A stretch of DNA of 56,876 nt from Bacteroidota bacterium. GTDB taxonomy: Bacteria > Bacteroidota > Bacteroidia > Cytophagales > Cyclobacteriaceae. The stretch is taken from NCBI GenBank assembly GCA_027592755.1, contig JAQCLE010000015.1, positions 1 to 56,876 of the forward strand, given 5' to 3'. The notes beneath the pieces were generated by a model. That model was not told the origin of the DNA. It ran no database searches and saw only the letters and a list, made by a program, of their open reading frames with translations. Each line of letters begins with the position of its first letter. Position 1 is the stretch's first letter. Shown here in pieces: positions 4,714-49,235 of this stretch. A program made the translations under genes and the position numbers.

Positions 4714-6264
4714 TCATTTTTTATAGGGCTCCGGTTGCTTGATCTCAGTTCCACCGGTTGTTCTGCCGCTCCACAGGTAATCGCTTGAACTAATATCACT
4801 CCATTCAGGAGTGGGTTTGAAGAAACTATCATAACGTGGATCCAGATGCTCTTTCAAAACATCTTCTTGTAATTCAATTCCCAAGCCAGGGGAATCCGGA
4901 ACAAGCGCAAATCCCTTCTCCATGATGTTATTGCCATCGGTTGTTTTTACAAGATCCTTCCACCACGGGTTATCCAAAGAGCCATTATTAGGCATCTCCA
5001 ATGAAAGCACATTGTTTGTGGCAGCGGCACAATGAATATTGGCCATGAATGAAACAGGAGTGCCTGCAAAATGCAAAATCATGGGAACTCCCTGGGACTC
5101 GGCATAATCACCAATGATCTTGGTTTCCAAAAGCCCACCCGAGGTAGCTAAGTCAGGTTGAACAATATCTACCGCATGTGCATCAATAAGTTTGATGAAT
5201 TTTTCCTTTAAATAAATATCCTCTCCGGTAAGTGTAGGCGTTTCAATTGCGTCGGTAACTGTTTTCCATTGATCTATATAATCCATGGGGAAAAAATCTT
5301 CAAGGAACGCCAATCTGTAAGGATCAAGTGCTTTACCAACACGTATCGCTGTATTCACATCATAATTCCCAACTCCATCAGCGCCAAGCGGAAGGTCCCA
5401 CCCTACTACATTACGCACCATTTCAACATACTTGGCAAGCTCATCCAGCCCCTTATCAGTAATTTGAGTCTGTGTGAAGGGTTGTTTAGCTCTTAAATCA
5501 CCGGTTTGAACTGGAGCATAGCTGTTCCTGTACTCCGCGGTAAACCAAAACCGATCATTGACAGTTGTTCCGGGGATATCGGCAATCCATGATAAAGAGG
5601 GATACATCTTAAACCAGGTGATGCCCAGCTCTTCCTTGCGGAATTTCATTTCTTCTTTAAACTTATCGACATCCATGTTCCTTCCATCGTGCCTGGGAAC
5701 ATAAGCGTACATTCTAATCTTTTCGCGGTATTTTCCTCCCAGCAATCGCCAGCAAGGCACGTTATAGGCTTTACCGGTTAAATCCCACAGCGCCATTTCA
5801 ACAGCACTCACACCGCCACCTTGCCGTGCATGACCGCCAAATTGTTTGATGAGCTTGAATAACATTTCTACGTTAGTAGGATTCAAACCCAGAAGACGGC
5901 TTTTAAGCATCAATGCATACCGCCAATCCGCCCCATCTCTTACTTCACCTAATCCATAAATACCCTGATTAGTGTCAATGCGAATAATTGGTCGTCTACC
6001 AACAGCCACACAATACCGCATATCTGTGATTTTCAAATCAGAGGGATTTGAGGAGCGTTGCACTTTTGAGGTAGTCTCGGCAATGGAGTCTTCTACCGAC
6101 AAACTCATCATACCCGCCAAAGACATTCCCCCGAGGGCTGTTTTTTTAAAGAAATCACGACGACCCTGTTTCGGCGCAGGACCGATTGGTTCTTTTGGGG
6201 GAGGCTGGGTAGTGAAATTCTCTTCTTGCTTGTTTTTCGTAAGTTCTTTTAGGATATTTTTCAT
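4714..6264 (-). CDS. Tat-exported enolase-superfamily acid-sugar dehydratase (copy 1)
   Basis: Mandelate racemase / muconate lactonizing enzyme family member, expected to remove water from a sugar acid. After a basic leader the twin-arginine motif GRRDFFKK lies at 34-41, followed by a hydrophobic stretch to about residue 55, so export is likely. The barrel has Lys219 (WFKM), metal-ligand candidates Asp296 (GADG), Glu322 (LED) and Glu348 (GED), and His398 (LHFAGTP). At 516 residues it is longer than the usual 350-420 because of the leader, a loop near 225-265 and a C-terminal tail. It is about 45% alike by eye to the gene at 7724-9181, and the two flank an exported aldolase. Substrate unknown; dehydratase role inferred from the active-site pattern. 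Confidence 0.8.
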   Translation of the reverse strand: MKNILKELTKNKQEENFTTQPPPKEPIGPAPKQGRRDFFKKTALGGMSLAGMMSLSVEDSIAETTSKVQRSSNPSDLKITDMRYCVAVGRRPIIRIDTNQGIYGLGEVRDGADWRYALMLKSRLLGLNPTNVEMLFKLIKQFGGHARQGGGVSAVEMALWDLTGKAYNVPCWRLLGGKYREKIRMYAYVPRHDGRNMDVDKFKEEMKFRKEELGITWFKMYPSLSWIADIPGTTVNDRFWFTAEYRNSYAPVQTGDLRAKQPFTQTQITDKGLDELAKYVEMVRNVVGWDLPLGADGVGNYDVNTAIRVGKALDPYRLAFLEDFFPMDYIDQWKTVTDAIETPTLTGEDIYLKEKFIKLIDAHAVDIVQPDLATSGGLLETKIIGDYAESQGVPMILHFAGTPVSFMANIHCAAATNNVLSLEMPNNGSLDNPWWKDLVKTTDGNNIMEKGFALVPDSPGLGIELQEDVLKEHLDPRYDSFFKPTPEWSDISSSDYLWSGRTTGGTEIKQPEPYKK

Positions 6265-6536
6265 AATAGTTGGGGGTTAGTTTATCATCTAATTTAAGAA
6301 ATCGATGATGATTTTTGTTTTATTCAAATTGACACTACATAAAGCTTTGGTTGTTCATGAGAATAACCGTCGTAAAATTCTAGTAATAAATGGCAGTAAG
6401 AGATTGTAATAAAAAAAGGTGCTATAGATCTATAGCACCTTTTTTTAATGATGTCCATATGCATTGATTCGAAAATCATTTGAAAATGAGAACCGGGAGT
6501 GCGATTCCATTTTTTTGGGAATTCTAATTCAGCATA
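6265..6536. other. Intergenic spacer with strong hairpin
   Basis: This 272-base gap separates the aldolase gene from the next dehydratase gene. Apart from the perfect palindrome at 6411-6446 I see no coding pattern and no RNA gene. Confidence 0.6.
6411..6446. terminator. Bidirectional intrinsic terminator-like palindrome
   Basis: Seven A residues, a perfect 22-bp palindrome (11-base arm GGTGCTATAGA and its complement) and seven T residues follow one another without mismatch. The hairpin plus U-tract would form on either strand. It lies between two minus-strand genes, so it would end or attenuate transcription coming from the aldolase gene, giving copy 1 dehydratase its own transcription. Confidence 0.8.
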
Positions 6537-7511
6537 TTAGTTCGCACCCCTTGCCGCCCCTTTTTCTTCTCTCTCTTTTATAAAATCTGTTAATTCCTTT
6601 TTGGGCATCGGTAGATTCGGATATTGATCTATCCATTGCTTAAAATCTTTTTCAAACACATCATCATCTACAACAAAGGCCTCATTAACATATTGGTATT
6701 TGTTGGTCCTCATGCAAAAACGATTGAACTCATCACGTAGAGCCGTGTATTCACCAGAAATTACTACGCCCTGTACAAGATGAGGCGGAATAAAAGCAAC
6801 ACCCGTTGTTTTGGCAAGCACTACGTCACCCGGTAAAACCGTTACCCGACCTATGCGAATAGGACCATTTATACTGGCGATCATCATCTGTTTAATTGCC
6901 GAAGGATCTGAACCTCGAACCCAACCATTAAACCCTTCAATCTGGGATAGGCCCTCAACATCTCGTACAGATCCATTAAATATTATCCCTCTTTTCCCTG
7001 CCTTGTAAATAGCATTTCCAAGGTTATCACCAATCAAAGTACCTTCTACCATTTTACCATAGCTATCCGCTACGTAGACATCCCCATCCATTAATTTAAT
7101 AATGGGGGCATAATTTGTTACAGGCGTTTTTGTGCCTTCTTTTTCTGCCTGCTTCTGTACATAGTTATTAAAATCTTCTCTTAAAGGCGTAAACTGAGCA
7201 GTTACTACACGCCCTGTCATTACATTTTCAGGATGCAGAATCTCCCAGCCGTTTTCATAAGTACTTGCGAAGTTTTCAAATTGGCTCTCATATCCGCTCC
7301 TACGCAATGAACCCCAGACTTCTTCCATGGAAAGTGCTTTTAATCTTTCCAGCAACTGATCAGAAACTTTTGGCCTTCCATCTGATGTACGCTCACCTGT
7401 CCATTCAGGAGTTAGTTCCTTTATACTCCCGGCTGGCCATACGACACTCTGGGATTTAGAATGAAATCCAAGTAAAATAAAGGCAAAAGATATTAATAGT
7501 ATTTTTTTCAT
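6537..7511 (-). CDS. Exported RraA-like / HMG aldolase family protein
   Basis: Member of the RraA / 4-hydroxy-4-methyl-2-oxoglutarate aldolase fold, 324 residues including a Sec-type signal peptide (MKKILLISFAFILLGFHSKS). Known relatives with catalytic function cleave pyruvate from 4-hydroxy-2-oxo acids with Mg or Mn. The key loop GDNLGN (161-166), the Arg183-Asp184 pair in FNGSVRD, and GDVVLAKTTGVAFIPP (228-243) are all present, so catalysis is more likely than the RNase E-inhibitor role of E. coli RraA. The N-terminal 90 residues and the C-terminal 60 are extra to the core. Gene order dehydratase-aldolase-dehydratase suggests that it splits a 2-keto-3-deoxy acid outside the cytoplasm; this is inference, and secreted members are unusual. 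Confidence 0.8.
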   Translation of the reverse strand: MKKILLISFAFILLGFHSKSQSVVWPAGSIKELTPEWTGERTSDGRPKVSDQLLERLKALSMEEVWGSLRRSGYESQFENFASTYENGWEILHPENVMTGRVVTAQFTPLREDFNNYVQKQAEKEGTKTPVTNYAPIIKLMDGDVYVADSYGKMVEGTLIGDNLGNAIYKAGKRGIIFNGSVRDVEGLSQIEGFNGWVRGSDPSAIKQMMIASINGPIRIGRVTVLPGDVVLAKTTGVAFIPPHLVQGVVISGEYTALRDEFNRFCMRTNKYQYVNEAFVVDDDVFEKDFKQWIDQYPNLPMPKKELTDFIKEREEKGAARGAN

Positions 7512-7723
7512 AACATTTTGGTTTAGTTTAAAAATAGCAAGGGCACATTAATTCAAATTTTCCAGCTGCTGCAAGTTTGATCTTTTTAAGACTACCTAAG
7601 GGAATTAGGTTTTAACCAGGGCCTTTGGCATCACTGGTAGCCATAAACAAGAAAGACAAATCAGAGCAACCCAAAGCACCAACTTGTCTTTCGTCAAAAA
7701 TTCAATTCACCAAATGAAGCTCA

Positions 7724-9181
7724 TTAACTCCATAGCCTGTCATTGGCACGTATTTTATCCCATTCTGGGGTTGGGGCAAAAAACTTCTCTCCCTCTATCA
7801 GGTATTTCTTTACCATATCCTCATTGAGTTCTACTCCTATTCCTGGCTTTTCCGGTACGGTGACATAACCATCTTTAACAATTGGCCCATCAAAACCTGT
7901 CACCAGATTTTCCCAATCCTTCTTATCTACGGCATGATGCTCCAGCCACATAAAATTTTCAGTGGCAGCTGCAGCATGAACTGCACCAAGGAAGGAAACA
8001 GGTCCTGCTGCATGATGTTGCATAAACCCAATGCCATGTCTTGTCGCAAAATCTCCGATTTTCTTGGTTTCTAAAATCCCTCCTGCTGTGTTTGGATCGG
8101 GATGAACTATGTCAACTGATCTAGTCTCAATCAATTTTTCAAATCCACCCTGAAGCATATAGATATCTTCTCCTGTTTGAATAGGTGTTGTAGTTGACTG
8201 CGTTAATTCTCTTAACTGATCTGTTAACTGCCATGGTATGATATCTTCAATGTAGGCCAGGTTATACTTCTCAGAAGCCCTTGCGAGTTTAATGGCTTCA
8301 TTAATACCAAAATGTCCCCAATGATCTGTTCCCATTGGTATATCATATCCAATTTTCGAACGCATGACATCCAGAAATTCCATCAATTTATCAATACCCT
8401 TGTCAGTGACTTGAACCCTGGTAAACGGGTGCATAGTTTTGTTATATGTCGAATAATCATATTGATAGGGATTATATTTAGCATCAGGGGAATTGATAAC
8501 TGTACCTGGGATGCCCTCGAGTAAACGAATTCCAATGTCCATCTTCAAAGCAGTATAGCCCTGATCGATTCTAGCTTGCATCCGTGCAGCATATTCATTC
8601 GGATCTCGTGAAATAGTCGTATCACAATACACCCGTACTTTGTCCCGGTATTTTCCACCTAATAATTGATACACAGGGACATTGTAAGCCTTTCCTACGA
8701 TATCCCATAGGGCCATTTCAACACCAGATACACCACCTCCCTGGCGTGCGTGACCTCCAAACTGCTTAATGATACCAAACAGACGCTCCACATTACATGG
8801 ATTTTCACCCAGTAGCCGGCTTTTCAAAAACAACGCATACTCCTTTGCTGCGCCATCGCGAACGTCACCATGGCCAATTATACCCTGGTTGGTATAAATT
8901 CTTACAATCGGAGTTCTAAATACGACATCTCCACCAATCTCAGCAATCCGCAAATCAGTAATTTTGAGCTCTGATGGAGCCGAATATCGATTCACATTTT
9001 GTGAAGCGTAAGCTACTTGTTCACTTACCGAAGCTTTTGCTAACCCGGCAAGGCTCAGCCCCCCAAGGGTAAGACCGCCCGCTTTCTTAAAAAATGACCG
9101 TCTGCTGTCTGCCTGCTTTTCTTTTTCTTCTTTCTGGGTGTCTTTAAAAATGTTTTGTAGTTTTTTGTTTTTATAAATCAT
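7724..9181 (-). CDS. Tat-exported enolase-superfamily acid-sugar dehydratase (copy 2)
   Basis: A second mandelate racemase family enzyme, 485 residues. The twin-arginine motif SRRSFFKK is at 26-33, followed by a Gly/Leu/Ala-rich h-region to about residue 50. Active-site candidates are Lys213 (ALKMDIG), Asp286 (GTDHWGH), Glu312 (IED), Glu338 (GED) and His389/His390 (QHHAAGP). It shares with copy 1 the block QFGGHARQGGGVS and the ENP-NVE-LF signature. Differences in the loop after the catalytic Lys and in the His motif suggest different substrates. It is the first gene of the minus-strand trio and is transcribed away from the SDR gene at 9462 across a shared 280-base promoter region. Confidence 0.8.
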   Translation of the reverse strand: MIYKNKKLQNIFKDTQKEEKEKQADSRRSFFKKAGGLTLGGLSLAGLAKASVSEQVAYASQNVNRYSAPSELKITDLRIAEIGGDVVFRTPIVRIYTNQGIIGHGDVRDGAAKEYALFLKSRLLGENPCNVERLFGIIKQFGGHARQGGGVSGVEMALWDIVGKAYNVPVYQLLGGKYRDKVRVYCDTTISRDPNEYAARMQARIDQGYTALKMDIGIRLLEGIPGTVINSPDAKYNPYQYDYSTYNKTMHPFTRVQVTDKGIDKLMEFLDVMRSKIGYDIPMGTDHWGHFGINEAIKLARASEKYNLAYIEDIIPWQLTDQLRELTQSTTTPIQTGEDIYMLQGGFEKLIETRSVDIVHPDPNTAGGILETKKIGDFATRHGIGFMQHHAAGPVSFLGAVHAAAATENFMWLEHHAVDKKDWENLVTGFDGPIVKDGYVTVPEKPGIGVELNEDMVKKYLIEGEKFFAPTPEWDKIRANDRLWS

Positions 9182-10232: not shown

Positions 10233-10361
10233 AATAAATAAATCTGCCCTGTAGTGAGAACGAAATGACAACTCTGTGTCGATTTTAGTGGAAACTGGGA
10301 TAGTTCATAGTATCCTATCAATTGTACTTGTATTAAAGTAAATTCAGTGATGTTTCACATT

Positions 10362-11147
10362 ATGAACAACCCCAACTTGATTCGGGACTTAATCAGACCA
10401 TTAGTTTCTGGCCTCTTGGTATTCAATTTGGCCATGAGTTCAAATGCTCAGGAAATCAGAGCGCTTAAGGATTTATGGCCCGTCAAGGGTAGTAGCTTTT
10501 ACCAGGGTTTTGGCAAGACAATATCAGGTACCCAACTCGATTTCTTCCCCTTTCTGGATGACGGGAATATCTCGCTTTACCTGGGTGAGAATGGAAAATA
10601 CAAATCCTTCGAATTCCAAACCGAAAGGATTCCAGCAGACTATGATGAGCCCTTTATCACCTTTATTTGGGAAAGTGGGATCGCTAGAAGTGTTGATCCT
10701 GATAAATCAGAATTCCGAGTTTCTCTAAATGGAAGTGAGCTGGTCACGTTTAATTCCTTTACAGAGGGATCTCTATCCAATTGGGAGTTTACCGCCCAAA
10801 ACGGCGTCCAACTGGCTTTTGTCACCACCTCCATCGGTAAGGCTCATGGCGATTTATTTGGTTACATGTTTCTCAACGTACCCTTAAAGAATTTTCAAAA
10901 GGGAGAAGCATTGACATTAAAGTTCGATGAAATCAAATCGAACAACCGCGATTATTACATGGCTATCCAAAACCCTGTTAAAGAGTCACTGACTATACTC
11001 GCAGAACCGGCAATCCTTAAAACTGAAAACGGCCCTAAACAAAGCATCAAAGTTGATCTGACCCACCTGGGTCAGCCAACCAAAGCAAAATTCTCTATCA
11101 ATGGGAATACTATTATTGAATCCAAAATTCAGGTTGGGGAGAACATA
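10362..11147 (+). pseudogene. 5' part of a large secreted hydrolase, truncated (possibly GH38-like)
   Basis: Starts with a signal peptide that ends SSNAQ (ATG at 10362 preferred; the frame opens at 10347 with GTG). The next 230 residues look like the N-terminal beta-sandwich of a much larger secreted enzyme, with FFPFLDDGNISLYLG, EPFITFIWESGI and GDLFGYMFLNVPL. I recall this layout from bacteroidete and planctomycete GH38-type alpha-mannosidases, but I am not sure. The expected catalytic domain is missing. Reading continues for only eight codons past about 11147 into sequence that is antisense to the neighbouring GH106-like gene. The gene is therefore cut at its 3' side by a rearrangement or an assembly join. 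Confidence 0.6.
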
Positions 11148-12221
11148 AAAGTTCTTGATCATCAATTCTGACAATGTCCTTTGATGGTCTTTCATAAACT
11201 TTTCTACTACTTCCTTTTCAAATGCATCCGGGTTGAAAAGTACAGGCAGGAACTTGTTGATGTCATAACCATTGATGTTTTTAAATTCTTCGGGCAATGT
11301 CGACGTCCATACAAAACCGGTAGCCTCATAACTGGCCAGGTAGAGGCCCTTTATGGCGGTATTTTTCAAATCTCCCATCACCTCTTTTATTTTGCCAATA
11401 ATGTAAAGGAAATGAGCCTCGGTAGCCTGGGCATCGAAATGATCAATAATGGGGCCAACAGAATTGCGGCTGGGGAGTTTTAATTGCTCACCGGAATTGG
11501 AACAGATGTAGCGGTGTACTTCCCAGTCACCCGTTAAATTCCAATCAAGTTTTTCGTTTTGGGGATCAAATTGATTTGAAACATCTATGATCTTAGCTGG
11601 ATCCCAATCTGGTTTGCCATTATTCAGGGGAATGGCCACAACTGCAATCTCCTTATAGAAAACTGGTTTTCCATTACGTTCAAATGAGATTAGCCTTTCC
11701 TTGCCTTTTGCATCAATTTTTGAAATCTTCGGGAACGGAAGCTTCAAATTTCCACCTGATTTTCCTTTTACCTCAATTTTGGAATAGTAAATGGATTTGG
11801 CTGAATTTTCCGGAGTGGTCCATGCGCCACCGGCATTCCAGCTACTCGCCATATTTAAACCTACGTCCATATTCCGCTTTTTGGCTTCATCAAGGGCTAC
11901 CTTAATTGAATTAAGTGACTCTTCGCTTAAAAAAGCAGGTCCCGGTTCTACCATGGTATCCTGTGCCGGTACACCAATTTCAAAAATGTCAAAGCCTGAA
12001 ATGCCTACTTTGTCCATGGCAGCAATTTCTTCTTTAACCCTTACTGCGTCAACATTGCCATTTAACCACCAGTAGTACACTTTTGGCCTTGCATTTGATG
12101 GTGGAGTTTCAAAACCCTCTTTTAGTTTGGCATAAGAATCAGCGCTCTGAGAAAAGGCCCGATTACCCTGAAAATATTCAGCAATGAGAAAGACCATTAG
12201 TATCAAAAAAGGTGTCTTCAT
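11145..12221 (-). pseudogene. GH106-like (alpha-L-rhamnosidase type) gene, 3'-truncated
   Basis: Signal peptide from the ATG at 12221 ends RAFSQS. The region YYWWLNGNVDAVRVKEEIAA, then GISGFDIFEIG and NMASSWNAGGAWTTPENSAK, is the hallmark N-terminal half of GH106-type rhamnosidases; VEKFMKDHQRTLSELMIKNF matches the inner barrel segment. Family members usually exceed 900 residues, whereas homology stops after about 359 residues near 11145. The open frame runs on to a TGA at 10986, but those last 52 residues are just the antisense of the truncated hydrolase gene. The start overlaps the end of the isomerase gene, so MFS, isomerase and rhamnosidase form one transcription unit. Intact relatives release L-rhamnose or a similar deoxy sugar. 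Confidence 0.75.
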
Positions 12222-12231
12222 GCTGTGATAT

Positions 12232-13662
12232 TTAGGCATTAATTATTTTAGCATCCAGGTGTAAATAATCGGCTATTTTTTTTATCGTACCAGCATGATG
12301 CCCGACCCCAAGGGCGAAATGATGAGTTGGCCCTTCCTTAATCCAGCGGGTCAGGAACGTTTTTATATCCGGCTCAAAGAACCCGCGGGTATTTGTATTT
12401 CCAGTGGCAGGAATTGGACCTGAAACGGACTGACCCTCTGCTATGATGAATTTGAATTTTCCATCGTATGTTGAATTGATGGACAACATTGTAATGGGTC
12501 CTTCTTTGATCTTAAACTCAATCCCTGCACCATGTCCCGGCTTTCCATGATACTTCTTCAAACTTCTTAATATTGGTTTTCCGTCGGCAATCGAGATATT
12601 ATGAGGGCCATCATGACCAACGAGAACAAACCCCTCATTAAAGTCAACAGGATGGAATTCGGCAAAACTTCCACCTATGCCAAGCCGGTCAAAAATTAAA
12701 AGAGCAATCAACGTTTTTAGATCTGATTCACCACACATTGGAATATGGCTGGCGGTAAGGAGTGAGTTGCCCACAATGAGGTTGGACATTACCTTCCTCA
12801 GTTCAGAATCCTCCTAGCCATCATAGTAGTATGCCAAGCCATCAAGGCGATTCTCTTCAACAAATTTCTTCAAGGCCACGGCTACCTTGGCGGCCATTCT
12901 CAGATCTTCATCCTGAAGTTTTAAAGAAATTGGGTCGGAAACAGGGTCGGGAGTATCACAAAAATCCAATATTTCATCCTCACAGGCTGCTATTTCTTTA
13001 TCCGTTACGGCATCGAAGCATTTCATCAATTGATTGGCCTCGCATTGCACGATGTGGCTACCAAAAAAGGAGGTCAACATGGTTACATCAGAATGCATAT
13101 CCAACATAGCATTTATCGGATGCCCAATATGACCGAAGTGAGATTTTCGTAAATCACGCAATACCCTTGCAATTCGGCAATATTCATCAATCTGCTCATC
13201 AACTTCAGGATCATCGTAAAGTGTCCCAATAATCATATTGGGCACCTTTTTTCCCATACGGACGGCAACACCGGCAAACTCAGGTAATGAACAGATGTCA
13301 TCATTGACCAATTGCATGTAGGTGGTGGCTTTTGCATAATCCAGTGCTTTTAGAGGTTGCAAAGCCACCAGGACTATGGGTTTGTCTATGGTTTTAATGA
13401 TTATTCCGAATGTCCCTGAAGTCGCATAGGTCAGCATATCACAAAAAATCAAATCGAGATTGGCTTTGTTGATTTTTTCCACCATGTGATAAGCCTTCTC
13501 AGGGTTATCAACAAATCCCAGATCGATCACCTCAATCCCATCAGATTTTACCTTCTCAATAAAGACTTGCTGTTTGTTGGTTAATTCATCGAGTAAGCCA
13601 TCCAACTGAGACCAGTATTTTTCATACCCAACACCAAAGACTCCAATTCTAACCATATTCAC
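12232..13662 (-). pseudogene. L-fucose/L-arabinose isomerase-like gene interrupted by in-frame TAG
   Basis: Two open frames, 13662-12814 and 12789-12232, belong to one protein in the same reading frame. They are separated only by TAG at 12814-12816 and nine codons (E D S E L R K V then Met). Joined, they give about 476 residues. The N half has IGVFGVGYEKYW and the substrate-domain fold. The break falls inside a conserved segment: AYYYDG, stop, EDSELRKV, MSNLIVGNSLLTASHIP, CGESDLKT. The C half has FAEFHPVDFNEGFVLVGHDGPHN and GHHAG. In the family this is one cytoplasmic ketose/aldose isomerase chain. One substitution would restore it. It could be a true pseudogene, a base error, or read through at low level. 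Confidence 0.8.
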
Positions 13663-16895: not shown

Positions 16896-17900
16896 TCACT
16901 GATTAGGCTGCAATACATCGTCATATACTTTTTGCATTGCCGGTGACAGGCTTTCGTAAATTGCTGGTAGGCATTTTTCTTTAAAGGCCCTGTTGTCCAC
17001 CTCGATAAACTCCATTCCTCTTTCTTCTAATTCATGTTTCACTTCCTTTTCCCTTTGTCGAAATAATTGATGTTCATAAGTCTGCATATCTTTGGCCGCA
17101 TCAAGAAATATCACCTTAAGATCATCAGGTAATTTCTGGAATTGCTTTTCCCCAATTACAGGATAGACCCAACTTACTACATGATTGGTCAGGTTGAGAT
17201 AATCCTGAACCTCAGCAAATCCTGCACTTCTGATGAGTGCAAGTGGATTTTCCTGAGCCTCAATGGTTCCCTGCTGAAGGGAAGTAAATACTTCTGAGAA
17301 AGACATCGGCGTTGGTTTTGCACCCAAGGCACTCCATGCAGTGACAAACGAGGGCACGTTCGGCACACGGATTACTATCCCTTGAAGATCATCCGGATGC
17401 CTAATTGGCCTATTGGAAGTAAGTTGACGTGGTCCTCTTTGAAAATAACAAACTGGCCTTAATCCCAGTTTATTCAGCATTTCCTCCTCCATCCTTTTGC
17501 CTATAGGCCCATCGATAAAATTTTTCATGGAAATGGAATCTTCGAGAAAAAATGGCAGCTCACAAAATGCAGCTATTTCTATCCAGTTACTCAATAACGA
17601 CCCGGTCGTTGTCATATCAATTATTTCTGCCTGTATTAACCTGATCGCCTCAATCTCTTTCGCCAATTGCTCAGAATGATAATTCTCAAGCTTTATCCTT
17701 CCTCCCGATCTTTCATGGAGTATATCCCCAAAATACTCGAAGGCCAGAAACCATGTATGATTGTCATTTACCAGACTAGTGCTGCGAAATACGAATTCAG
17801 GTTCTTCTTTGCTCGCACATTGACATAGAAGCAATACTGAGATGACAATCATCAAACTTTTATTCAGAGCTGAGAACATTTTGACATCAGTGATTTTCAT
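16896..17900 (-). CDS. dctP: TRAP transporter substrate-binding lipoprotein (DctP family)
   Basis: Periplasmic receptor that delivers a carboxylate, probably a sugar acid, to the TRAP membrane subunits. A lipoprotein signal ends LLLCQC; Met8 (17879) is an equally good start. The DctP fold is marked by NDNHTWFLAFEYFGDILHER, then GGRIKLENYHSEQLAKEIEA, PFFLEDS, and RVPNVPSFVTAWSALGAKPT. The segment GLRPVCYFQRGPRQLTSNRPI and the Arg of IVIRVP hold the carboxylate-binding arginine expected in this family. It is the last gene of the long minus-strand run, about 8 kb from its membrane partners, an unusual separation within one operon. Confidence 0.88.
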   Translation of the reverse strand: MKITDVKMFSALNKSLMIVISVLLLCQCASKEEPEFVFRSTSLVNDNHTWFLAFEYFGDILHERSGGRIKLENYHSEQLAKEIEAIRLIQAEIIDMTTTGSLLSNWIEIAAFCELPFFLEDSISMKNFIDGPIGKRMEEEMLNKLGLRPVCYFQRGPRQLTSNRPIRHPDDLQGIVIRVPNVPSFVTAWSALGAKPTPMSFSEVFTSLQQGTIEAQENPLALIRSAGFAEVQDYLNLTNHVVSWVYPVIGEKQFQKLPDDLKVIFLDAAKDMQTYEHQLFRQREKEVKHELEERGMEFIEVDNRAFKEKCLPAIYESLSPAMQKVYDDVLQPNQ

Positions 17901-26087: not shown

Positions 26088-27362
26088 TTAATCCATAAAC
26101 AAACGAGGCAAAAACAACGAAATTTCGGGAAAAAGTGTAACAAGAAACAAAATTCCCAAACTAACCAGTAAAAAGGGCCAACTCGCCTTACTCACTTCTC
26201 CGATTGAAACTTTCCCTATACTGGAGGCAACAAAGAGACATACTCCAACTGGAGGAGTTGTTAGTCCAATGATCAGATTCAATACAGCGATCACTGCAAA
26301 ATGTACGGGATCAATTTCAACAGCAATCGCAATTTTCATAAGTATTGGAAACAGTATCAGCATCGCCGCAATCGTCTCCATAAATGTTCCGACAATGATC
26401 AACAGCAAATTAATCAACAGCAATACAACATATCTGTTTCTGGAAAAATCCAATATCTCGGCGGAAATCAGCTGGGGTAACTGTTCAGTAATTAAAATAT
26501 ATCCAAAAAGATTAGCAAAGCCAACGAGTACCATCAGCGATGCCGAGGTCTTCATAGACTCTAAAACAGCAATTTGGATGTTCTTAGAATTAAGCTTCTT
26601 GTAAACAAAAATACCAATAATAAGGGCATAAAGAACGGCAATAATTGAAGCTTCGGTCGGAGTAAAAATACCTCCAATTATGCCAAAAAGTATAATAAAG
26701 GTCATCAATAACGACCAAAAAGTGTCAATAAATCCCTGCCCAACCTGCTTGAGACTACTACGTGAATGCTTGGGATATTTTCTTTTTGATGAAATGAAAT
26801 AAGTAAGGGTCATTAACCCTGCTCCAAGTAAAAAACCAGGAATTGCTCCAGCAAGAAACAACCGTCCTACAGAGAGACCTGTAAGCGTTGCAGCAATAAT
26901 CATTGGAACACTTGGAGGTATTATCGGTCCCACAGTCGATGAGGATGCGGTAACAGCACAAGAAAATCCCGCTCCATAACCTTCTTTTTTCATAGCAGGG
27001 ATCATGATGGATCCAATACTTGCCGTATCAGAAACTGCTGTTCCGGATATTCCAGCAAACAACATACTGGCACCAACATTGGCCAGAGCCAATCCACCTC
27101 TGATATGTCCAAACAAATGGTTGCAGAATGCTATAATTTTTTCTGTTAACCCTCCGGCATTCATCAAATTGCCGGCAAGTATGAAACCTGGAATACTCAG
27201 TAAGACAAAAACATCTATTCCCGAGTACATCTTCATCGGCAAGATTAGCAGCGGTATTCCCTTAACCAGAAGGTATACCAGGCATGCTAAACCAAGGGAG
27301 AATGCTATGGGGAAGCGAAGGAAAAGACTAATTACGAAAACTAAGATCAGAATGGCAGTCAT
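26088..27362 (-). CDS. dctM: TRAP transporter large membrane subunit DctM
   Basis: Inner-membrane transport subunit, 424 residues with about twelve helices, which moves the substrate with sodium. Characteristic blocks are GIDVFVLLSIPGFILAGNLM, GHIRGGLALANVGASMLFAG, SGTAVSDTASIGSIMIPAM and SSTVGPIIPPSVPMII, and near the end GLTTPPVGVCLFVASSI. Its ATG overlaps the TGA of dctQ, so the two are translationally coupled. The binding protein is encoded about 8 kb downstream in the same run of genes. Confidence 0.92.
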   Translation of the reverse strand: MTAILILVFVISLFLRFPIAFSLGLACLVYLLVKGIPLLILPMKMYSGIDVFVLLSIPGFILAGNLMNAGGLTEKIIAFCNHLFGHIRGGLALANVGASMLFAGISGTAVSDTASIGSIMIPAMKKEGYGAGFSCAVTASSSTVGPIIPPSVPMIIAATLTGLSVGRLFLAGAIPGFLLGAGLMTLTYFISSKRKYPKHSRSSLKQVGQGFIDTFWSLLMTFIILFGIIGGIFTPTEASIIAVLYALIIGIFVYKKLNSKNIQIAVLESMKTSASLMVLVGFANLFGYILITEQLPQLISAEILDFSRNRYVVLLLINLLLIIVGTFMETIAAMLILFPILMKIAIAVEIDPVHFAVIAVLNLIIGLTTPPVGVCLFVASSIGKVSIGEVSKASWPFLLVSLGILFLVTLFPEISLFLPRLFMD

Positions 27363-27847
27363 CAGTATTTCTTCAGCTTTTTCATTACGTCAAAAAATGC
27401 GAATGAAACAATTGATAAAGCCATTACCAGCACACTGGCAAAAGCAATTGACATCGTTAATTGGAGACTTGGAGATTTCTCCGGAATCCCAAGCACAACA
27501 AACTCAATGGAATAAATTGCCATAATCAAGAACATTACAAAAACTGTAATTGATATGCTCAAATCCAAAATCCTTTTGTGATTTTCTTTCAATTTATTAT
27601 ACACTAAATCCAGGTGGACGTAATAGTTTCCGATCATGGCCAGCCCGGCAGCAAAACCCATGGCATATATGAAGAAGAAACGAGCAGCCTCCTCAGTCCA
27701 TGAAGGAGCGCTTTCCATAAGGAATCTGGCATAAATCTGAATAAGAGTTGATCCAATGAACCCACCAGTACTTACCAATGTGCCTATTTTCAATATTTTT
27801 GATATTATCCTCTTTGCGCTTTTCATTTCATCATTTGCAAGTGTCAA
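27362..27847 (-). CDS. dctQ: TRAP transporter small membrane subunit DctQ
   Basis: Four-helix inner-membrane subunit of 161 residues that pairs with DctM. The family signature ESAPSWTEEAARFFFIYAMG lies between helices 1 and 2, followed by GNYYVHLDLVYNKL. It follows the sulfatase-lactonase fusion gene by 50 bases and overlaps dctM by four bases. Confidence 0.88.
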   Translation of the reverse strand: MTLANDEMKSAKRIISKILKIGTLVSTGGFIGSTLIQIYARFLMESAPSWTEEAARFFFIYAMGFAAGLAMIGNYYVHLDLVYNKLKENHKRILDLSISITVFVMFLIMAIYSIEFVVLGIPEKSPSLQLTMSIAFASVLVMALSIVSFAFFDVMKKLKKY

Positions 27848-27897: not shown

Positions 27898-30192
27898 TTA
27901 ATTCTTACCAATTTTATACCCCATGATTACCCGAAGCACATAGTCGTCGCAGGTAACATATAATACAGTCTCATCCTCATTCAATGTACAGTTCGATGTT
28001 CTTTTATCTGTCTTAATCGTACCCAAATGTTTGCCTTCGGGCGAAAAGACCAGGACTCCATCTGGCCCCGTTGCAAATAGGATCCCTTCGCTGTTTATCG
28101 TCATCCCGTCAGGGGCCTGCTTACTAATACTCTTTTCCATTAGGGATGTACCATCGAAGAGGACTCGTTCATTGGCCACTTTTCCATCGACAGATAGATC
28201 AAAGGCCATCCATCTTGGTGGAGTGGAATTGGCAACATACAATGTTTTGTTGTCAGGGGACAGCGCAATGCCATTTGGGGTATTGAGTGATTTTGTCAAA
28301 AGATCCATTTTCCCATTAGCGGTTAATCGATAGACACCACGAAAACCCAATGTGGTATCTGACACCGAAGCTATATTTCTTCCGAATTGCGGATCGGTAA
28401 AATAAATGTTTCCAGCCTTATCGACGGTAAGATCATTGGGGCCATTGAGTCGTTTACCTTCAAACTGGTAAGCAAGTGTTTGAAAGGTCGGTATTGGTGA
28501 GGCATATCCTGATAGTAACCGTGCAACTTCCCGATCTCCTATCCTGCATAGAAGGAGTTTCCCATTATTATCAAGGGTCAGACCATTGCTGCCACGACTT
28601 AATCGCTCATCTGTTCCAGAATAGCCACTGTACCTAAGAAATGGGGCTACGCCTTTTCCGTCCTCCCATTTATAAATCATATTTCTCGGTATATCAGAAT
28701 AAAGCAACATTTGCTTTTCCGGAATCCAGACCGGCCCTTCAGTCCATTGGTGGCCTTCAGCAATTACCTCGATCTTGGTGTAGGGCGGAACTATCTTGTC
28801 AAAATCTGAATGATAACTCTCAAGGTATCCAATGGTACCGTACCTCCGAAGTGAATCCAGTATCCGGGCATAGCGGTCTTTTAGTTCAGACAACTCGCCG
28901 GGTTTAACTTTCAATGGGTTTTCCTCCAGTTTGTCATTCTCAACATCAAAAAATCTTCCATCGTCATACAATTTGTATCTCGTGCCTTTCACAAATACGC
29001 TTTTTGGGAAATTTTCTTTATCCCATCCCGGTCGGGAGTCATGATCAATATAAACCCAATCCTTCATGACATTCTTATTGCCATCTAACACTTTCATAAA
29101 ACTCTGTCCGTCAGTATAAAAGTCCGAGGGCATTGTCCTACCAATTGCTTCAAAAATGGTTGGGATAAAATCACTTGGTGAAATCATCTCTTGGGTGACC
29201 AAACCACTTTGGATTTTACCCTTCCAGTTCACAATTAATGGTATTCTTGTTCCTGCATCATTGGTTAATCCTTTACCACCCCAAACAGTCTTGTCTCCCA
29301 TTTTAGAAGACAATGACAGATGGGTACCATTGTCACTATAAAAAATTACGAGGGTATTCTCAGCAAGATTATTCTTTTCAAGATGATCTAAAATTTTACC
29401 AACCAGTTTATCAGCATACTCCACCATGTCGCCAAAGAATTTATTGTCCTGTTTGTGCCGCAGCGTCAAGTCATTCCACTCTTCACTATCTGGTGTTGGT
29501 AAAAAAGGAGGATGTGTTAGCGCCATTGGATAATAGATAAAAAAAGGCTCTCGTCTGTTTCTATTGACAAAATCAAGCAGGTAGTCTGTATAAATATCAG
29601 GACCATATTTTCCAGCCGTATTGTACAGGAAATTGCCGTTTTGATAAATTAGCGGATCAGCATATCGTGAACCTTTGTCTTCGGTGTGATCCGTATGCCA
29701 CATACTGTATTCATCAAAGCCTGAATCCTCCACCCGCATTCCAGAACCCCGTCGTAATTCTCCACCTGGGAATCCTGGAGGATCATAACTCTGCAATTGC
29801 CACTTGCCTACCATGCAGGTCACATAACCCTCCTCCTGCATTAAATGTCCAAATGTTTTTTCCTTTGGATCAAGTATCCCAAATGCTCTCCAGTTCCTGA
29901 AATTGTATTTGCCAGTCATGAGGCTCACTCGCGTGGGCGTACATAACGGATAAGCATAGGCGTGTTCGAAACGTATGCCATTTTCTGCCATTTTATCTAA
30001 AACCGGAGTCTTGTATGAAGTACCACCATAGCAGCCAACAGCTTCAGACCCCAGGTCGTCAGCCATGATCAAGATTACATTTGGAGGGCTGCCTTTTCTT
30101 TCAGTTTGGGAGAAAAGTTGCCCAAATGACGCATGAAGAAATGTCAGAAATAAGAGATATCGCAAATGGTTAGTAGAAGTGAGATAATTCAT
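27898..30192 (-). CDS. Exported sulfatase fused to SMP-30/gluconolactonase propeller
   Basis: A two-enzyme protein of 764 residues. The preferred ATG at 30192 leads into a signal peptide ending HASFGQLFSQ; the frame opens further upstream only with TTG. Residues 37 to about 450 are an S1 sulfatase: metal Asp45-Asp46 (MADDLG), formylglycine site Cys84-Thr-Pro-Thr-Arg88, VGKWQLQSY and FYSDNGTHLS. From about 470 to the end is a complete SMP-30 domain with all three metal-ligand motifs: TEGPVW, NGPNDLTV and APDGMTI. The C-terminal blade resembles the free lactonase at 39917. First gene of the eleven-gene run. Coupling desulfation to lactone opening in one exported chain is an inference from domain order. 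Confidence 0.85.
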   Translation of the reverse strand: MNYLTSTNHLRYLLFLTFLHASFGQLFSQTERKGSPPNVILIMADDLGSEAVGCYGGTSYKTPVLDKMAENGIRFEHAYAYPLCTPTRVSLMTGKYNFRNWRAFGILDPKEKTFGHLMQEEGYVTCMVGKWQLQSYDPPGFPGGELRRGSGMRVEDSGFDEYSMWHTDHTEDKGSRYADPLIYQNGNFLYNTAGKYGPDIYTDYLLDFVNRNRREPFFIYYPMALTHPPFLPTPDSEEWNDLTLRHKQDNKFFGDMVEYADKLVGKILDHLEKNNLAENTLVIFYSDNGTHLSLSSKMGDKTVWGGKGLTNDAGTRIPLIVNWKGKIQSGLVTQEMISPSDFIPTIFEAIGRTMPSDFYTDGQSFMKVLDGNKNVMKDWVYIDHDSRPGWDKENFPKSVFVKGTRYKLYDDGRFFDVENDKLEENPLKVKPGELSELKDRYARILDSLRRYGTIGYLESYHSDFDKIVPPYTKIEVIAEGHQWTEGPVWIPEKQMLLYSDIPRNMIYKWEDGKGVAPFLRYSGYSGTDERLSRGSNGLTLDNNGKLLLCRIGDREVARLLSGYASPIPTFQTLAYQFEGKRLNGPNDLTVDKAGNIYFTDPQFGRNIASVSDTTLGFRGVYRLTANGKMDLLTKSLNTPNGIALSPDNKTLYVANSTPPRWMAFDLSVDGKVANERVLFDGTSLMEKSISKQAPDGMTINSEGILFATGPDGVLVFSPEGKHLGTIKTDKRTSNCTLNEDETVLYVTCDDYVLRVIMGYKIGKN

Positions 30193-30231
30193 TATTTGGT
30201 AAGAATTGGTTTTTATAATACTGCTAATTAA

Positions 30232-30263
30232 CAAAAGAATAGAAACAAGACACTATTTGCAAA
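30232..30263 (-). promoter_or_regulatory. Candidate promoter of the long minus-strand operon
   Basis: On the minus strand TTTG (30260-30263) is followed after 20 bases by TTCTTTTG (30232-30239), one mismatch from the Bacteroidota -7 consensus TAnnTTTG. It lies about 40 bases before the ATG of the sulfatase-lactonase gene. Confidence 0.35.
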
Positions 30264-31374: not shown

Positions 31375-32622
31375 ATGAAAAGGAAATTACTATCAATTTT
31401 ATATGCTATTGGACCCGGGATATTTTGTATCGGATACACTGTAGGTACCGGCAGCGTAACATCCATGGCCAAAGCCGGAAGCGCCTATGGATCACAACTA
31501 CTCTGGGTATTGGCGATTAGCTGCCTTTTCTCGTGGGCGCTGATGGAGGCCTACGGCCGGTATGCCGTAGTTACTGGTCGTACAGCGATCAATAGCTTTA
31601 AAACCGAATTCAAATACGGAAAACTTATGGCCATCCTGGTGGTTGTTGGTGTGGTACTCGGGCAGATGAACTCACTTTCGGGTATTGTCGGACTTACTTC
31701 CAATGCCATTTATGAGATCATTCGATTGTTTATTCCTTCACTCAACCCGGAAAATTACTGGATGATATTAGGAATTGCCGTAGCGATGCTCATTATTCTG
31801 TATGGTTTATTGATAACCGGTAGTATCTCGTTCTTCGAAAAAATACTCGTATTTTTTGTGACCATCATGGGGATTTCCTTCCTGGTATCCATGTTCATGG
31901 TAATGCCATCAGCCGCTGCAATTGCTGCGGGGTTTATTCCTTCAATACCCCAAACCGAAGGAGGCACATTGCTTGTGGCCGCTTTTGTGGGCACTACAAT
32001 GGCCGGACCAACATTCATTGTCAGACCATTACTGATGAAGGGGAAGAATTGGGGAATGGATAATATAAAAGATCAATCGAGGGATTCCCTGGTATCAGCT
32101 ACCTTACTTTTTGTTATCAGTGGATCGGTTATGATCACATCAATGGGAGCACTTTATTACAATGGGCTTACGATCGAAAGGGTAATTGATATGGTACAAA
32201 CTCTGGAGCCGGTAGCTGGAAAATTTGCTGTAGCGCTATTCATGGTTGGAGCGCTGAGTGCTGGTATATCATCAGTATTCCCCATTTTGATGGTGGCTCC
32301 CTTGCTCATCGCTGACTACAAAGACGGATCGCTTGATACCTCTTCTCAACTTTTCAAAATACTAACCGCTGTTGCCTGCGTTATCGGGCTTTCAATCCCA
32401 ATCATGGGAGCGAATCCAATTGTTGCTCAAATAGCATCCCAGGTTGCCAATGTTTTCATTCTCCCATTAATCATATTTGGTATAATATACCTGATCAATA
32501 GCAAGCAAAGAATGGGAGACCATCGAGCAGGTATGGGATTAAACATTATATTAGCCATGGCTCTGATATTTGCCTGCATTATTTCCTGGGTAGGATTTAA
32601 CGCGTTACTTCAATTCATCTAA
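31375..32622 (+). CDS. Nramp-family membrane protein lacking the canonical metal ligands
   Basis: Eleven-helix inner-membrane protein of 415 residues with the Nramp (LeuT-type) fold. Helix 1 starts GPGIFCIGY as in Mn/Fe transporters, but the metal-binding DPGN is replaced by GTGS at 24-27. In helix 6 the MPH motif is replaced by MAGPTFIVRP. Divalent-metal transport is therefore doubtful. The gene lies 53 bases upstream of a DgoD-like dehydratase and shares its strand, so it may import an organic compound connected to that pathway. No function can be assigned from sequence alone. A start at 31375 gives a compact N-terminus as in the family. Confidence 0.75.
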   Translation: MKRKLLSILYAIGPGIFCIGYTVGTGSVTSMAKAGSAYGSQLLWVLAISCLFSWALMEAYGRYAVVTGRTAINSFKTEFKYGKLMAILVVVGVVLGQMNSLSGIVGLTSNAIYEIIRLFIPSLNPENYWMILGIAVAMLIILYGLLITGSISFFEKILVFFVTIMGISFLVSMFMVMPSAAAIAAGFIPSIPQTEGGTLLVAAFVGTTMAGPTFIVRPLLMKGKNWGMDNIKDQSRDSLVSATLLFVISGSVMITSMGALYYNGLTIERVIDMVQTLEPVAGKFAVALFMVGALSAGISSVFPILMVAPLLIADYKDGSLDTSSQLFKILTAVACVIGLSIPIMGANPIVAQIASQVANVFILPLIIFGIIYLINSKQRMGDHRAGMGLNIILAMALIFACIISWVGFNALLQFI

Positions 32623-32675
32623 ATAAGTAAATGACTTTGCATTAATATTCATTAATAAACTATGACAATTAAACC

Positions 32676-33902
32676 ATGATTAACGAAAAAAACACAACCT
32701 CAAGGAGGCGATTCTTCAAAAATTCCTTAGCTACTGCTGTAGCGGGTACAGCTGGTCTCTATGGCCTTAAAGGTGCAGTTCCGGTCAAACCATTCGATAG
32801 CCCAATCAATCCAAATGACAAGATAAAGGTCACCAAACTTGAGACTTTTGTATTGAAAAATTCCTGGGTCTTCGTAAAGATTTCTACCGATGCTGGTATC
32901 ACCGGATGGGGCGAGATGCTAAAAGATGACGCCAAAGCCTGCGCAGCTGGGGCAATGGAAGTTGGTGACTACCTTATTGGAGAAGATCCCCGCCCGGTGG
33001 TGAAACATTGGCAAGCGATCCACCGTGGTGCATTCTATCGTGGTGGACCAATAAAAACTGCTATCTCTTCCGGAATCGACCAGGCCTTATGGGACATTGC
33101 AGGTAAGTGCTATGGCGTGCCTGTTTATAAACTTTTCGGCGGTCCCACGCGTGACAAAGCGTTTGTCTATGGTACTCCTGATGCAAAAACAGGTGTCAAA
33201 GCAATGAAGGTGGGTCCCCAAGCCTCTCGCCAGGCTTTCAAATATACTGAGGGTTCGAAATTTGTTGGTGAAGTAGTGGAGCGTTTTGCGGCGTTGAAGG
33301 CACAGTATCCAGGTGTTGATATCGGCATAGACTTTCATGGTGCTGTTCAACCTACAACCGCTAGTCTCCTCATAAAAGCACTTGAACCACATGATCCCTG
33401 GTTCTATGAAGAAATTGTACAGGCATTGAACGTGGATGTGATGGCCGATCTTGCTAAGAAAACACATATTCCTTTAGCTACGGGAGAGCGTATTTTCACC
33501 AAGTGGGGTTTCAGGGAAATTCTCGAAAAAGGAGCCGCAATGATACTTCAACCTGATGTTAATTATGCAGGTGGTATTACCGAATTGAAAATTATTGCCG
33601 GAATGGCGGAAGCTTATTATGCGCCTATAGCTCCCCATAATCCTAACGGACCATGTTCCCTGGCAGCAAGCTTACAAATCGCAGCATGCGTTCCAAATTT
33701 TATGGTTCAGGAACGTGGTGATCGGGAACACGAGCTTCTTGCCGAACCTTTGCCACCTGTAAGAGACGGATATCGCCCTATTCCAACTGGACCAGGACTT
33801 GGTATTACCATCGATGAAAATAAGCTCATGGATGAGGTCGGAGAACCTATGGAATACGGACCCCGATATGATCCGGATGATAACTCCGTTGTTGACTGGT
33901 AA
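32676..33902 (+). CDS. DgoD-like D-galactonate-type dehydratase with Tat signal
   Basis: Enolase-superfamily dehydratase of 408 residues that clearly aligns with E. coli DgoD from residue 50 on (WVFVKISTDAGITGWGE, GAFYRGGPI, SGIDQALWDIAGK). Catalytic and metal residues are kept: Asp219 and His221 (DFHG), Glu245 (YEEI), Glu271 (TGER) and His321 (APHNPNGP). Unlike DgoD, it has an N-terminal SRRRFFKN twin-arginine motif (9-16) with a short hydrophobic region, so export is predicted. It would turn an aldonate (galactonate or a relative) into the 2-keto-3-deoxy acid, outside the cytoplasm. The segment after residue 173 (KAMKVGPQASRQ) replaces the usual FKLN strand, which may alter specificity. Confidence 0.85.
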   Translation: MINEKNTTSRRRFFKNSLATAVAGTAGLYGLKGAVPVKPFDSPINPNDKIKVTKLETFVLKNSWVFVKISTDAGITGWGEMLKDDAKACAAGAMEVGDYLIGEDPRPVVKHWQAIHRGAFYRGGPIKTAISSGIDQALWDIAGKCYGVPVYKLFGGPTRDKAFVYGTPDAKTGVKAMKVGPQASRQAFKYTEGSKFVGEVVERFAALKAQYPGVDIGIDFHGAVQPTTASLLIKALEPHDPWFYEEIVQALNVDVMADLAKKTHIPLATGERIFTKWGFREILEKGAAMILQPDVNYAGGITELKIIAGMAEAYYAPIAPHNPNGPCSLAASLQIAACVPNFMVQERGDREHELLAEPLPPVRDGYRPIPTGPGLGITIDENKLMDEVGEPMEYGPRYDPDDNSVVDW

Positions 33903-33917
33903 TTCTTCTTTCGGGTA

Positions 33918-33949
33918 GTGTTGTCTTTTGATCATTCAAAAGACAACAC
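33918..33949 (+). promoter_or_regulatory. Intercistronic stem-loop
   Basis: Perfect 14-base arms (GTGTTGTCTTTTGA and its complement) with a 4-base loop TCAT. It sits between the dehydratase stop and the oxidase start. No U-tract follows, so it is not a standard terminator; it could stabilise mRNA ends or set relative expression. The 11 bases to the oxidase ATG after it leave room for translation initiation. Confidence 0.6.
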
Positions 33950-33968
33950 CTCCTAAATTATCCATAAC

Positions 33969-36839: not shown

Positions 36840-36895
36840 GGTCCGTAAATGACCTGTTTTATACTGTGTTAATCTTGTATAATTTATAAAAAGAA

Positions 36896-49145: not shown

Positions 49146-49235
49146 AGAATTACAAAATGAAATCCACTGAGGGAGTTTTATTAATAATACTAATTTAATT
49201 TATCCGGTAAATTATCAAGTTTCCTTAATCGGTCC

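Follow-up and report, generated by a model that had tools for sequence, protein, structure and literature searches.

Sugar-acid routes in which a dehydration precedes a pyruvate-forming cleavage are known under the names of DeLey-Doudoroff and Dahms, and the D-galactonate dehydratase DgoD belongs to the MR subgroup of the enolase superfamily; the known DgoD-type enzymes are cytosolic. Here we describe three neighbouring genes (P1, P2 and P3) on a contig of 56,876 nucleotides (JAQCLE010000015.1 of assembly GCA_027592755.1, from a member of the Bacteroidota with a genome of 4.2 Mb; the whole contig, C15 in our numbering, is referred to as the window), which encode two MR-subgroup proteins with signals of the twin-arginine (Tat) type and, between them, an RraA/HMG-aldolase-type protein with a Sec-type signal. 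With the DgoD routes the locus has in common the enzyme superfamily, a proposed dehydration ahead of a pyruvate-forming cleavage and (in P4, a further MR protein of the window) a score above the galactonate dehydratase cut-off; it differs in that the MR proteins of the trio carry Tat signals, that P1 and P3 score below the cut-offs, and that the active site of their relatives (MRa, the relatives of P1 and P3) departs from the galactonate type at the D-x-H acid.

The other described systems resemble the locus in part. P2 has the fold and the Arg-Asp pair of the HMG/CHA aldolase (structure 3noj), but it bears a Sec signal, is longer (324 residues vs 238 in the 3noj chain) and scores far below the aldolase cut-offs, and its family partners MR genes and not aromatic cleavage enzymes. 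An RraA-like protein of the Bacteroidota acting on a keto-deoxy sugar acid has been reported in Flavobacterium sp. UMI-01 (FlDet, PMC8563752); according to the excerpted passages of that paper, however, it is a dehydratase/decarboxylase found in cell extract, those passages name no MR partner, and the words 'signal peptide' and 'periplasm' are absent from its main text. Sus-type utilisation loci have ECF sigma/FecR, SusC and SusD genes beside enzymes, as do relatives of the trio, in which, by contrast, the core consists of MR- and RraA-type enzymes with a BASS symporter (the window itself is devoid of SusCD). The plant carriers BASS2, BASS6 and BASS5, as presented in excerpts of PMC10645422, belong to the same family (PF01758), and the symporter of the relatives is a candidate for the transport of pyruvate, glycolate or a 2-keto acid; unlike the plant proteins it is bacterial and operon-linked to enzymes that are predicted to be exported. 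No description of exported MR and RraA proteins was found among the titles and abstract openings listed by searches of the open-access literature aimed at the system (subscription papers and preprints lie outside this scope). The enzyme families, SusCD and BASS are all known; their compartment and combination appear to be new.

Gene order and export signals

The three open reading frames (ORFs) were all recovered where a preliminary description of the contig had placed them, on the minus strand and with the transcription order P3, P2, P1:

7724-9181, minus strand: P3, MR-subgroup protein of the enolase superfamily, likely a sugar-acid dehydratase (485 aa; PF02746 and PF13378 above cut-off)
9026-9181, minus strand: Tat-type signal region of P3, residues 1-52, arginine pair (RR) at 27-28 (RR invariant in alignments of 18 and 55 rows)
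6537-7511, minus strand: P2, RraA/HMG-aldolase-type protein, predicted to be exported (324 aa; PF03737 67.3 bits, cut-off 24.5)
7449-7511, minus strand: Sec-type signal peptide of P2, residues 1-21 (end judged by eye), sequence MKKILLISFAFILLGFHSKSQ
4714-6264, minus strand: P1, second MR-subgroup protein, altered active site (516 aa; PF02746 and PF13378)
6076-6264, minus strand: Tat-type signal region of P1, residues 1-63, RR at 35-36 (from the sequence and the alignments)

The N-termini of P1 and P3 consist of a long polar region, an RR motif (read from the sequence as GRRDFFKK at residues 34-41 of P1 and SRRSFFKK at residues 26-33 of P3) and a mildly hydrophobic stretch, which is the layout of a Tat signal, and P2 starts with the hydrophobic signal peptide given above; one TatC gene is present in the genome. 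ORFs, Pfam domains and N-termini alike confirm the arrangement that the preliminary description had proposed, namely two twin-arginine MR-type proteins flanking a Sec-signal protein of the RraA/HMG type. Both arginines of the motif are invariant in the two MR alignments. Furthermore, in a scan of named genomes (of at least 307 relatives the best 80 were kept as loci; RraA served as search bait, and its presence in all 80 is by construction), 62 of 64 MRa proteins had the RR pattern, as had 21 of 23 MRb proteins, vs 40 of 703 other ORFs, a background that itself includes other Tat-like proteins. The two MRa misses are a contig-truncated and a broken frame, and the two MRb misses are a cytosolic-type paralogue and an RRDAM start that the pattern used does not count. 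A hydrophobic N-terminus was present in 96 of the 101 RraA proteins of these loci (the misses being a short unsignalled paralogue, a truncated frame and three proteins just below the threshold), but this measure is weak alone, since 307 of the 703 other ORFs also score. In the structural model of P3, residues 13-44 have a pLDDT below 50 and the PDB matches begin at about residue 68, as expected of a signal followed by a linker. Taken together, the conservation of these motifs across relatives bears out the export signals claimed for all three proteins, and makes it highly probable, as far as N-terminal sequences can tell, that the proteins of the trio families are exported.

Signalled and unsignalled paralogues in one genome

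The genome holds 19 MR_MLE_C matches, 17 of them above the cut-off (the two below read as true enolases), and seven RraA-like matches. Judged by eye on the N-termini, seven of the 17 MR proteins carry an RR signal (P1, P3, P4 and the copies on contigs C188, C177, C31 and C101; the copy on C33 is cut by the contig end, leaving its signal not judgeable), and three RraA proteins carry a Sec-type signal (P2 and those on C188 and C131, the latter on a contig without an MR match). Of the seven RraA matches, five have one of the 17 MR genes no more than 3 kb away (probability about 2e-7 under uniform placement), and in all five pairs the compartments agree: both partners have export signals on C15 and C188, and both are unsignalled on C24, C27 and C153.

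In a phylogenetic tree of 41 hand-picked MR proteins (including 16 of the 17 own-genome copies, with the contig-cut C33 copy left out, and with 45 N-terminal residues trimmed from the exported proteins), the export label changes three times, as compared to a mean of 10.7 for shuffled labels (0 of 500 shuffles were as low), and the starred branches force at least two changes. P1 and P3 fall inside an all-exported group of 13 (support 100/99); long branches leave the deep order of the tree unsure.

Two further observations concern this genome. The RraA-like match on C183 (C183:23076-23504, L027) is a short remnant of the exported RraA family, a 175-aa open frame. Genes of the UxuA family (mannonate dehydratase type) have RR-type N-termini, as judged by eye, in five of six cases (on C23, C195, C107, C98 and C183; L214-L218), the only copy without RR being that on C164, which adjoins a PfkB sugar-kinase-type gene. 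A second superfamily of sugar-acid dehydratases may therefore also be exported.

Folds and active sites

Both MR_MLE domains score above the Pfam cut-offs in P1, P3 and P4. The last of these, which had been put forward as a third Tat-bearing dehydratase of the window, proved to be a protein of the galactonate dehydratase type:

32676-33902, plus strand: P4, MR protein of the galactonate dehydratase type with a Tat signal (349.4 bits against the NCBIfam model for this enzyme, cut-off 311; best PDB match 3rr1)

The possibility that P4 is damaged (it has an eight-residue gap before strand 2) was rejected: the gap is common to both of its 84-85% relatives and the Lys is retained, which marks it as a subgroup trait.

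The P3 model (pLDDT 83.9) has 2qq6 as its nearest solved structure (Z 50.1, root-mean-square deviation (rmsd) 1.5, 369 residues aligned; the title of this entry gives no function), and the matches that follow are sugar-acid dehydratases and their relatives. Residues K213, D286, E312, E338, D362 and H389 (P3 numbering throughout) are identical across the 18-row alignment and, together with E414, are kept in 55 of 55 rows of the larger one, P1 included. We take D286, E312 and E338 to be the metal ligands of the MR barrel, and H389/D362 to be its His-Asp dyad; the three acidic positions and the dyad positions are present in both P3 and P1. A loss of metal and base residues, to which the preliminary description had drawn attention as a point to check, was thus not found. 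P1 carries the changes D215->Y, H287->G and H290->N. Within the 55 rows H287 and H290 are kept except in P1, while the exceptions at D215 are P1 (Y) and three relatives at 59% identity (H), and the His pair 415-416 is missing from P1 and from the same three relatives. Of the second-strand K-x-K, a feature of the MR subgroup, the first Lys is kept and the second is replaced by D (P3 and most MRa), Y (P1) or H (L189, L191 and L192). Judging by these replacements, P1 may be inactive or changed in specificity. Against the NCBIfam galactonate dehydratase model (PRK14017, cut-off 311), P1 and P3 reach only 166.2 and 198.6 bits, and an attempt to assign a substrate from family scores yielded none for either. 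The MR proteins of this family are probably dehydratases.

The P2 model (pLDDT 91.6) matches Streptomyces RraAS2 (5x15: Z 23.3, rmsd 1.9, 196 residues aligned) and the HMG/CHA aldolase 3noj (Z 21.0, rmsd 3.7, 213 residues aligned). Excerpts of PMC5065237 give Arg-123 as catalytic and Asp-124 as metal-binding in the Pseudomonas putida HMG/CHA aldolase, with Glu-199 as a further metal-binding residue; the alignment equivalents of Arg-123 and Asp-124 in P2 are R183 (invariant in a 57-row alignment) and D184 (kept in at least 90% of the rows). P2 fails both NCBIfam aldolase cut-offs (45.6 vs 304.5 bits and 46.0 vs 179). Pyruvate release by the RraA proteins is not established, since FlDet, itself RraA-like, is a keto-deoxy-glucarate dehydratase/decarboxylase (excerpts of PMC8563752); we consider it somewhat more probable than the contrary that RraA acts as a pyruvate-releasing aldolase on the product of the MR enzymes.

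Pairing of MR and RraA genes in relatives

Among 146 related genomes a P2 match was found in 46 (E <=1e-10) and a P3 match in 40 (E <=1e-60), and of 395 genomes sampled from the phylum 24 contain the exported RraA family (E <=1e-40), so that we reject, at family level, the idea of the trio as an isolated oddity. For the P2 matches in the 146 relatives 104 of the 108 listed rows were used (E <=4.7e-40; the four weaker ones were left out); 66 of these lie no more than 3 kb from a P3-like MR gene, with the same strand shared in 56 cases. Both genes occur in 39 genomes, RraA only in six and MR only in one; these co-occurrence counts are lower bounds because the MR cut was strict.

By their record titles, the best-80 loci include members of Cytophagales, Chitinophagales, Bacteroidales, Flavobacteriaceae, Saprospiraceae and Mucilaginibacter, and they take in the culturable genera Algoriphagus, Cyclobacterium, Dyadobacter and Maribacter. 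The recurring gene order is ECF sigma, FecR, SusC, SusD, RraA, MRb, RraA, MRa, BASS, and partial versions of it are numerous; Algoriphagus iocasae and Maribacter flavus have the complete operon, and the flank retrieved for Dyadobacter fermentans has no BASS gene. An RraA gene directly adjoins an MR gene in 61 of the 80, 18 contain two RraA genes along with two or more MR genes, and the fetched flanks (many of which stop at contig ends) contain MR in 63, BASS in 45, SusC in 37 and SusD of one type in 35. In L090 the SusD protein was assigned to PF12771/PF12741 and the symporter to PF01758; cluster members outside those scanned with Pfam or NCBIfam are named by similarity only. The BASS copies of the 45 loci show identities of 38-70%. 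The substrate hints given by the neighbours are mixed: gluconokinase-like FGGY genes occur in nine loci, KDG-kinase-type PfkB genes in eight, UxuA-type genes in seven (with an RR start in five loci and in 10 of 13 copies), and KDPG aldolase and PQQ dehydrogenase genes in five each, the PQQ gene adjoining a core gene in four and lying five genes off in the fifth. Moreover, malate synthase and lactate-permease-family genes are found near exported-type RraA genes in L117 (Cyclobacterium xiamenense) and L099.

The surroundings of the closest P2 relatives have a gene row of their own. In L108 (P2 relative at 82%) the genes follow one another as sigma, FecR, SusC, SusD, YhcH/YiaL-type, RraA and BASS; L114 has the same series as far as RraA, at its contig end. 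The P2 subgroup itself is therefore, by gene order, tied to SusCD and BASS. The YhcH/YjgK/YiaL proteins (PF04074) encoded between SusD and the P2 relatives (L108:9307-9939 and L114:7568-8227) have signal-like N-termini, and in the P2 subgroup they may stand in for MR as the partner. In L098:8815-14862 the P2 orthologue of genome G032 adjoins homologues of two genes located at the far end of the window (DUF1501 and PSD1/PSCyt, 52690-56720; identities 56% and 48%).

Two other families recur near the operons. A small DUF4440/SnoaL-like protein is encoded at L171:10951-11412 and in 10 other loci (only the L171 copy was covered by the Pfam scan); its gene directly adjoins a core gene in 10 of the 11, and several copies have signal-like N-termini. 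Proteins of the N-acylglucosamine 2-epimerase family, also with signal-like N-termini, are encoded at L090:17444-18892, L092:5932-7314 and L122:12576-13853.

A possible extracytoplasmic route and its alternatives

Our preferred reading, which we hold tentatively and at a little under an even chance, is that the trio supplies the enzymes of a sugar-acid route which is non-phosphorylating and runs outside the cytoplasm. In such a route the SusCD porters (in the relatives) would bring a sugar acid or its precursor into the periplasm, where in some relatives PQQ dehydrogenases could oxidise the sugar to the sugar acid; the MR enzymes would dehydrate the acid to a 2-keto-3-deoxy acid, the RraA-type protein, as a class II aldolase, would split the latter into pyruvate and an aldehyde, and the BASS symporter (in the window, a TRAP system) would import the small organic acid. 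The strongest hint to the product is the position of BASS next to the exported-type enzymes: excerpts of PMC10645422 name pyruvate, glycolate, chain-elongated 2-keto acids and pantoate as substrates of BASS proteins, and carriage of the first three kinds would fit the release of an acid in the periplasm. Malate synthase genes near RraA (L117 and L099) and after P4, as well as the hydroxyacid dehydrogenase gene after P4, would suit a C2 by-product. The location of the route outside the inner membrane, as proposed in the preliminary description, gains support from the export signals, from BASS and SusCD in the operons of relatives and from the PQQ genes of five loci, but the window contributes neither SusCD nor BASS. 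The broader generalisation, in which a widespread and so far undescribed class of Bacteroidota loci takes sugar acids to pyruvate by means of periplasmic Tat/Sec enzymes with SusCD and BASS as importers, is possible, and we rate it as somewhat less likely than not. If it were true, central carbon metabolism as far as pyruvate would run outside the cytoplasm and need no transport of sugar across the inner membrane; committed steps of sugar-acid degradation, including carbon-carbon cleavage, would have moved out of the cytoplasm. SusCD loci built on MR and RraA genes would have to be read anew, a group of MR_MLE, RraA and BASS genes would acquire a function, and there would be an explanation for the export-type N-termini on seven of the 17 MR_MLE and five of the six UxuA-type genes of this genome.

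Several observations weigh against the preferred reading. The pairing of dehydratase-type and aldolase-type genes stands at family level but not for the closest homologues, which are mostly apart: only one (L112) of the seven loci closest to P2 (L108-L114, 70-83%) has an MR gene in its flanks (L109, L111 and L114 end shortly past RraA), the genomes G032, G046 and G086 (P2 at 79-80%) have no P3-like gene on the same contig, and only one (G025) of eight relatives with 72-81% identity to P3 has RraA within 3 kb. An MR gene is missing from 17 of the 80 loci, partly through contig ends. Going by these neighbourhoods, MR and RraA are a conserved pair for the families as a whole, but this particular trio is no fixed unit and, as a set of three, is in part an oddity. 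At the level of the proteins, P1 is without several active-site residues that are near-invariant in its family, the MRa site reads D-H-x-G-H vs D-x-H in the galactonate dehydratase type (the MRb stretch is D-x-H-G-R, as in 3rr1), and P1 and P3 lie below every NCBIfam equivalog cut-off shown. On the side of transport and supply, SusCD and BASS are absent from the 43 window ORFs of at least 150 aa (the single BASS gene of the genome lies on contig C34, and its identity of about 59% to the L090 copy falls inside the 38-70% range of the 45 copies), the PQQ gene of the window is frame-disrupted near its start, and one BASS protein covered in the excerpts of PMC10645422 binds pantoate and not ketopantoate. 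Finally, the KDG-kinase-type and KDPG aldolase genes in eight and five of the 80 loci suggest that there the intact keto-deoxy acid enters the cytosol.

This last point is central to an alternative in which the exported dehydratases make a 2-keto-3-deoxy acid, BASS takes it up whole, and its degradation is completed in the cytosol by KDG kinase and KDPG aldolase, with RraA as an accessory. The KDG-kinase-type gene adjoins a core gene in six of its eight loci, the KDPG aldolase of L164 passes its NCBIfam cut-off and relatives of BASS carry 2-keto acids (PMC10645422, in excerpt); nevertheless, the presence of two RraA genes next to two or more MR genes in 18 loci speaks for RraA as a main actor, the malate synthase genes near RraA in L117 and L099 indicate a C2 product, and we regard this course as rather unlikely. 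Quite improbable, in our estimation, is a Weimberg-like, non-aldolytic pathway in which the RraA proteins would be FlDet-like dehydratase/decarboxylases acting on keto-deoxy aldarates. Such an activity has been described for an RraA-like protein of the Bacteroidota whose gene has an alginate lyase gene alongside (excerpts of PMC8563752), and the Arg-Asp pair of the HMG/CHA aldolase, which P2 and its relatives keep and which would speak for aldol cleavage, does not discriminate, as FlDet may have it too.

The MR proteins could also be periplasmic epimerases or cycloisomerases of sugar acids or lactones, with the RraA step separate. Cycloisomerases (5olc and 4hpn) are indeed among the structural matches, and an MR neighbour is lacking for most of the closest P2 relatives (L108 and L114 having the YhcH/YiaL-type gene); in NCBIfam, however, P1, P3 and P4 match acid-sugar dehydratases best, although only P4 passes the cut-off, and we give this explanation the same small probability as the FlDet-like one. 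That the N-terminal motifs do not lead to export at all, and that the pathway is an ordinary cytosolic one, is very improbable: the present evidence for export consists of motif and hydrophobicity tests, but the motifs are near-completely conserved in relatives, the genome's own cytosolic-type paralogues lack them, and the signals of the RraA-MR pairs agree without exception.

Other genes of the window

The preliminary description had assembled a wider oxidative pathway from further genes of the window. The SGL gene at 39917 and the PQQ gene among these are listed here, together with the gene next to the trio, the TRAP transporter and the two genes that follow P4:

3637-4659, minus strand: PIG-L type deacetylase (PF02585), encoded by the gene that follows P1 downstream on that strand; N-terminus signal-like, any link to the trio unproven
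16896-17900, minus strand: TRAP DctP (DctM at 26088-27362, DctQ at 27362-27847)
33969-36839, plus strand: protein of the FAD/Fe-S 2-hydroxyacid dehydrogenase type (PF02913, PF01565, PF13183), possibly for glycolate or D-2-hydroxyacid oxidation; putative link
36896-38500, plus strand: malate synthase (PF01274), would consume glyoxylate; putative link
39917-40939, minus strand: SGL/gluconolactonase-type protein (PF08450 118.6 bits) with a signal-like N-terminus; putative link
47041-49059, minus strand: PQQ-cytochrome c dehydrogenase (PF01011 622.5 bits), lipoprotein-like signal peptide upstream in another frame; putative link

Of the three exported lactonases proposed, the one at 39917 holds as an SGL protein with a signal-like N-terminus, that at 27898 turned out to be a fusion (27898-30234, 778 aa, a sulfatase joined to a propeller of the SGL/gluconolactonase type), and that at 42120 belongs to Amidohydro_2 and not to SGL, and begins with an RR motif. 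The PQQ dehydrogenase proposed at 47041 is a PQQ-cytochrome c dehydrogenase, but its signal peptide sits in a different frame (region 47041-49235), just upstream of the listed TTG start, for which reason we consider the gene disrupted or mis-sequenced. Since SGL and malate synthase each neighbour the core genes in only one of the 80 loci, the wider pathway rests mainly on the window plus the PQQ cases. The TRAP system is possibly an inner-membrane importer of acids connected with the trio.

A same-strand run at 31375-38500 consists of an Nramp transporter, P4, the FAD/Fe-S 2-hydroxyacid dehydrogenase (best NCBIfam matches of the YdiJ and GlcD type, below cut-off) and malate synthase, and looks like an operon ending in glyoxylate use. 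A GH106 rhamnosidase gene (10347-12239) looks incomplete, as its 417-aa ORF covers parts of a 743-position profile, and an ORF on the opposite strand (10347-11171) overlaps the end of it. At 12232-12789 there is a match to the C-terminal domain of L-arabinose/L-fucose isomerase, immediately upstream of which a 282-aa ORF (12814-13662) has no Pfam match; the region 12232-13662 is perhaps one isomerase-like gene split over two frames.

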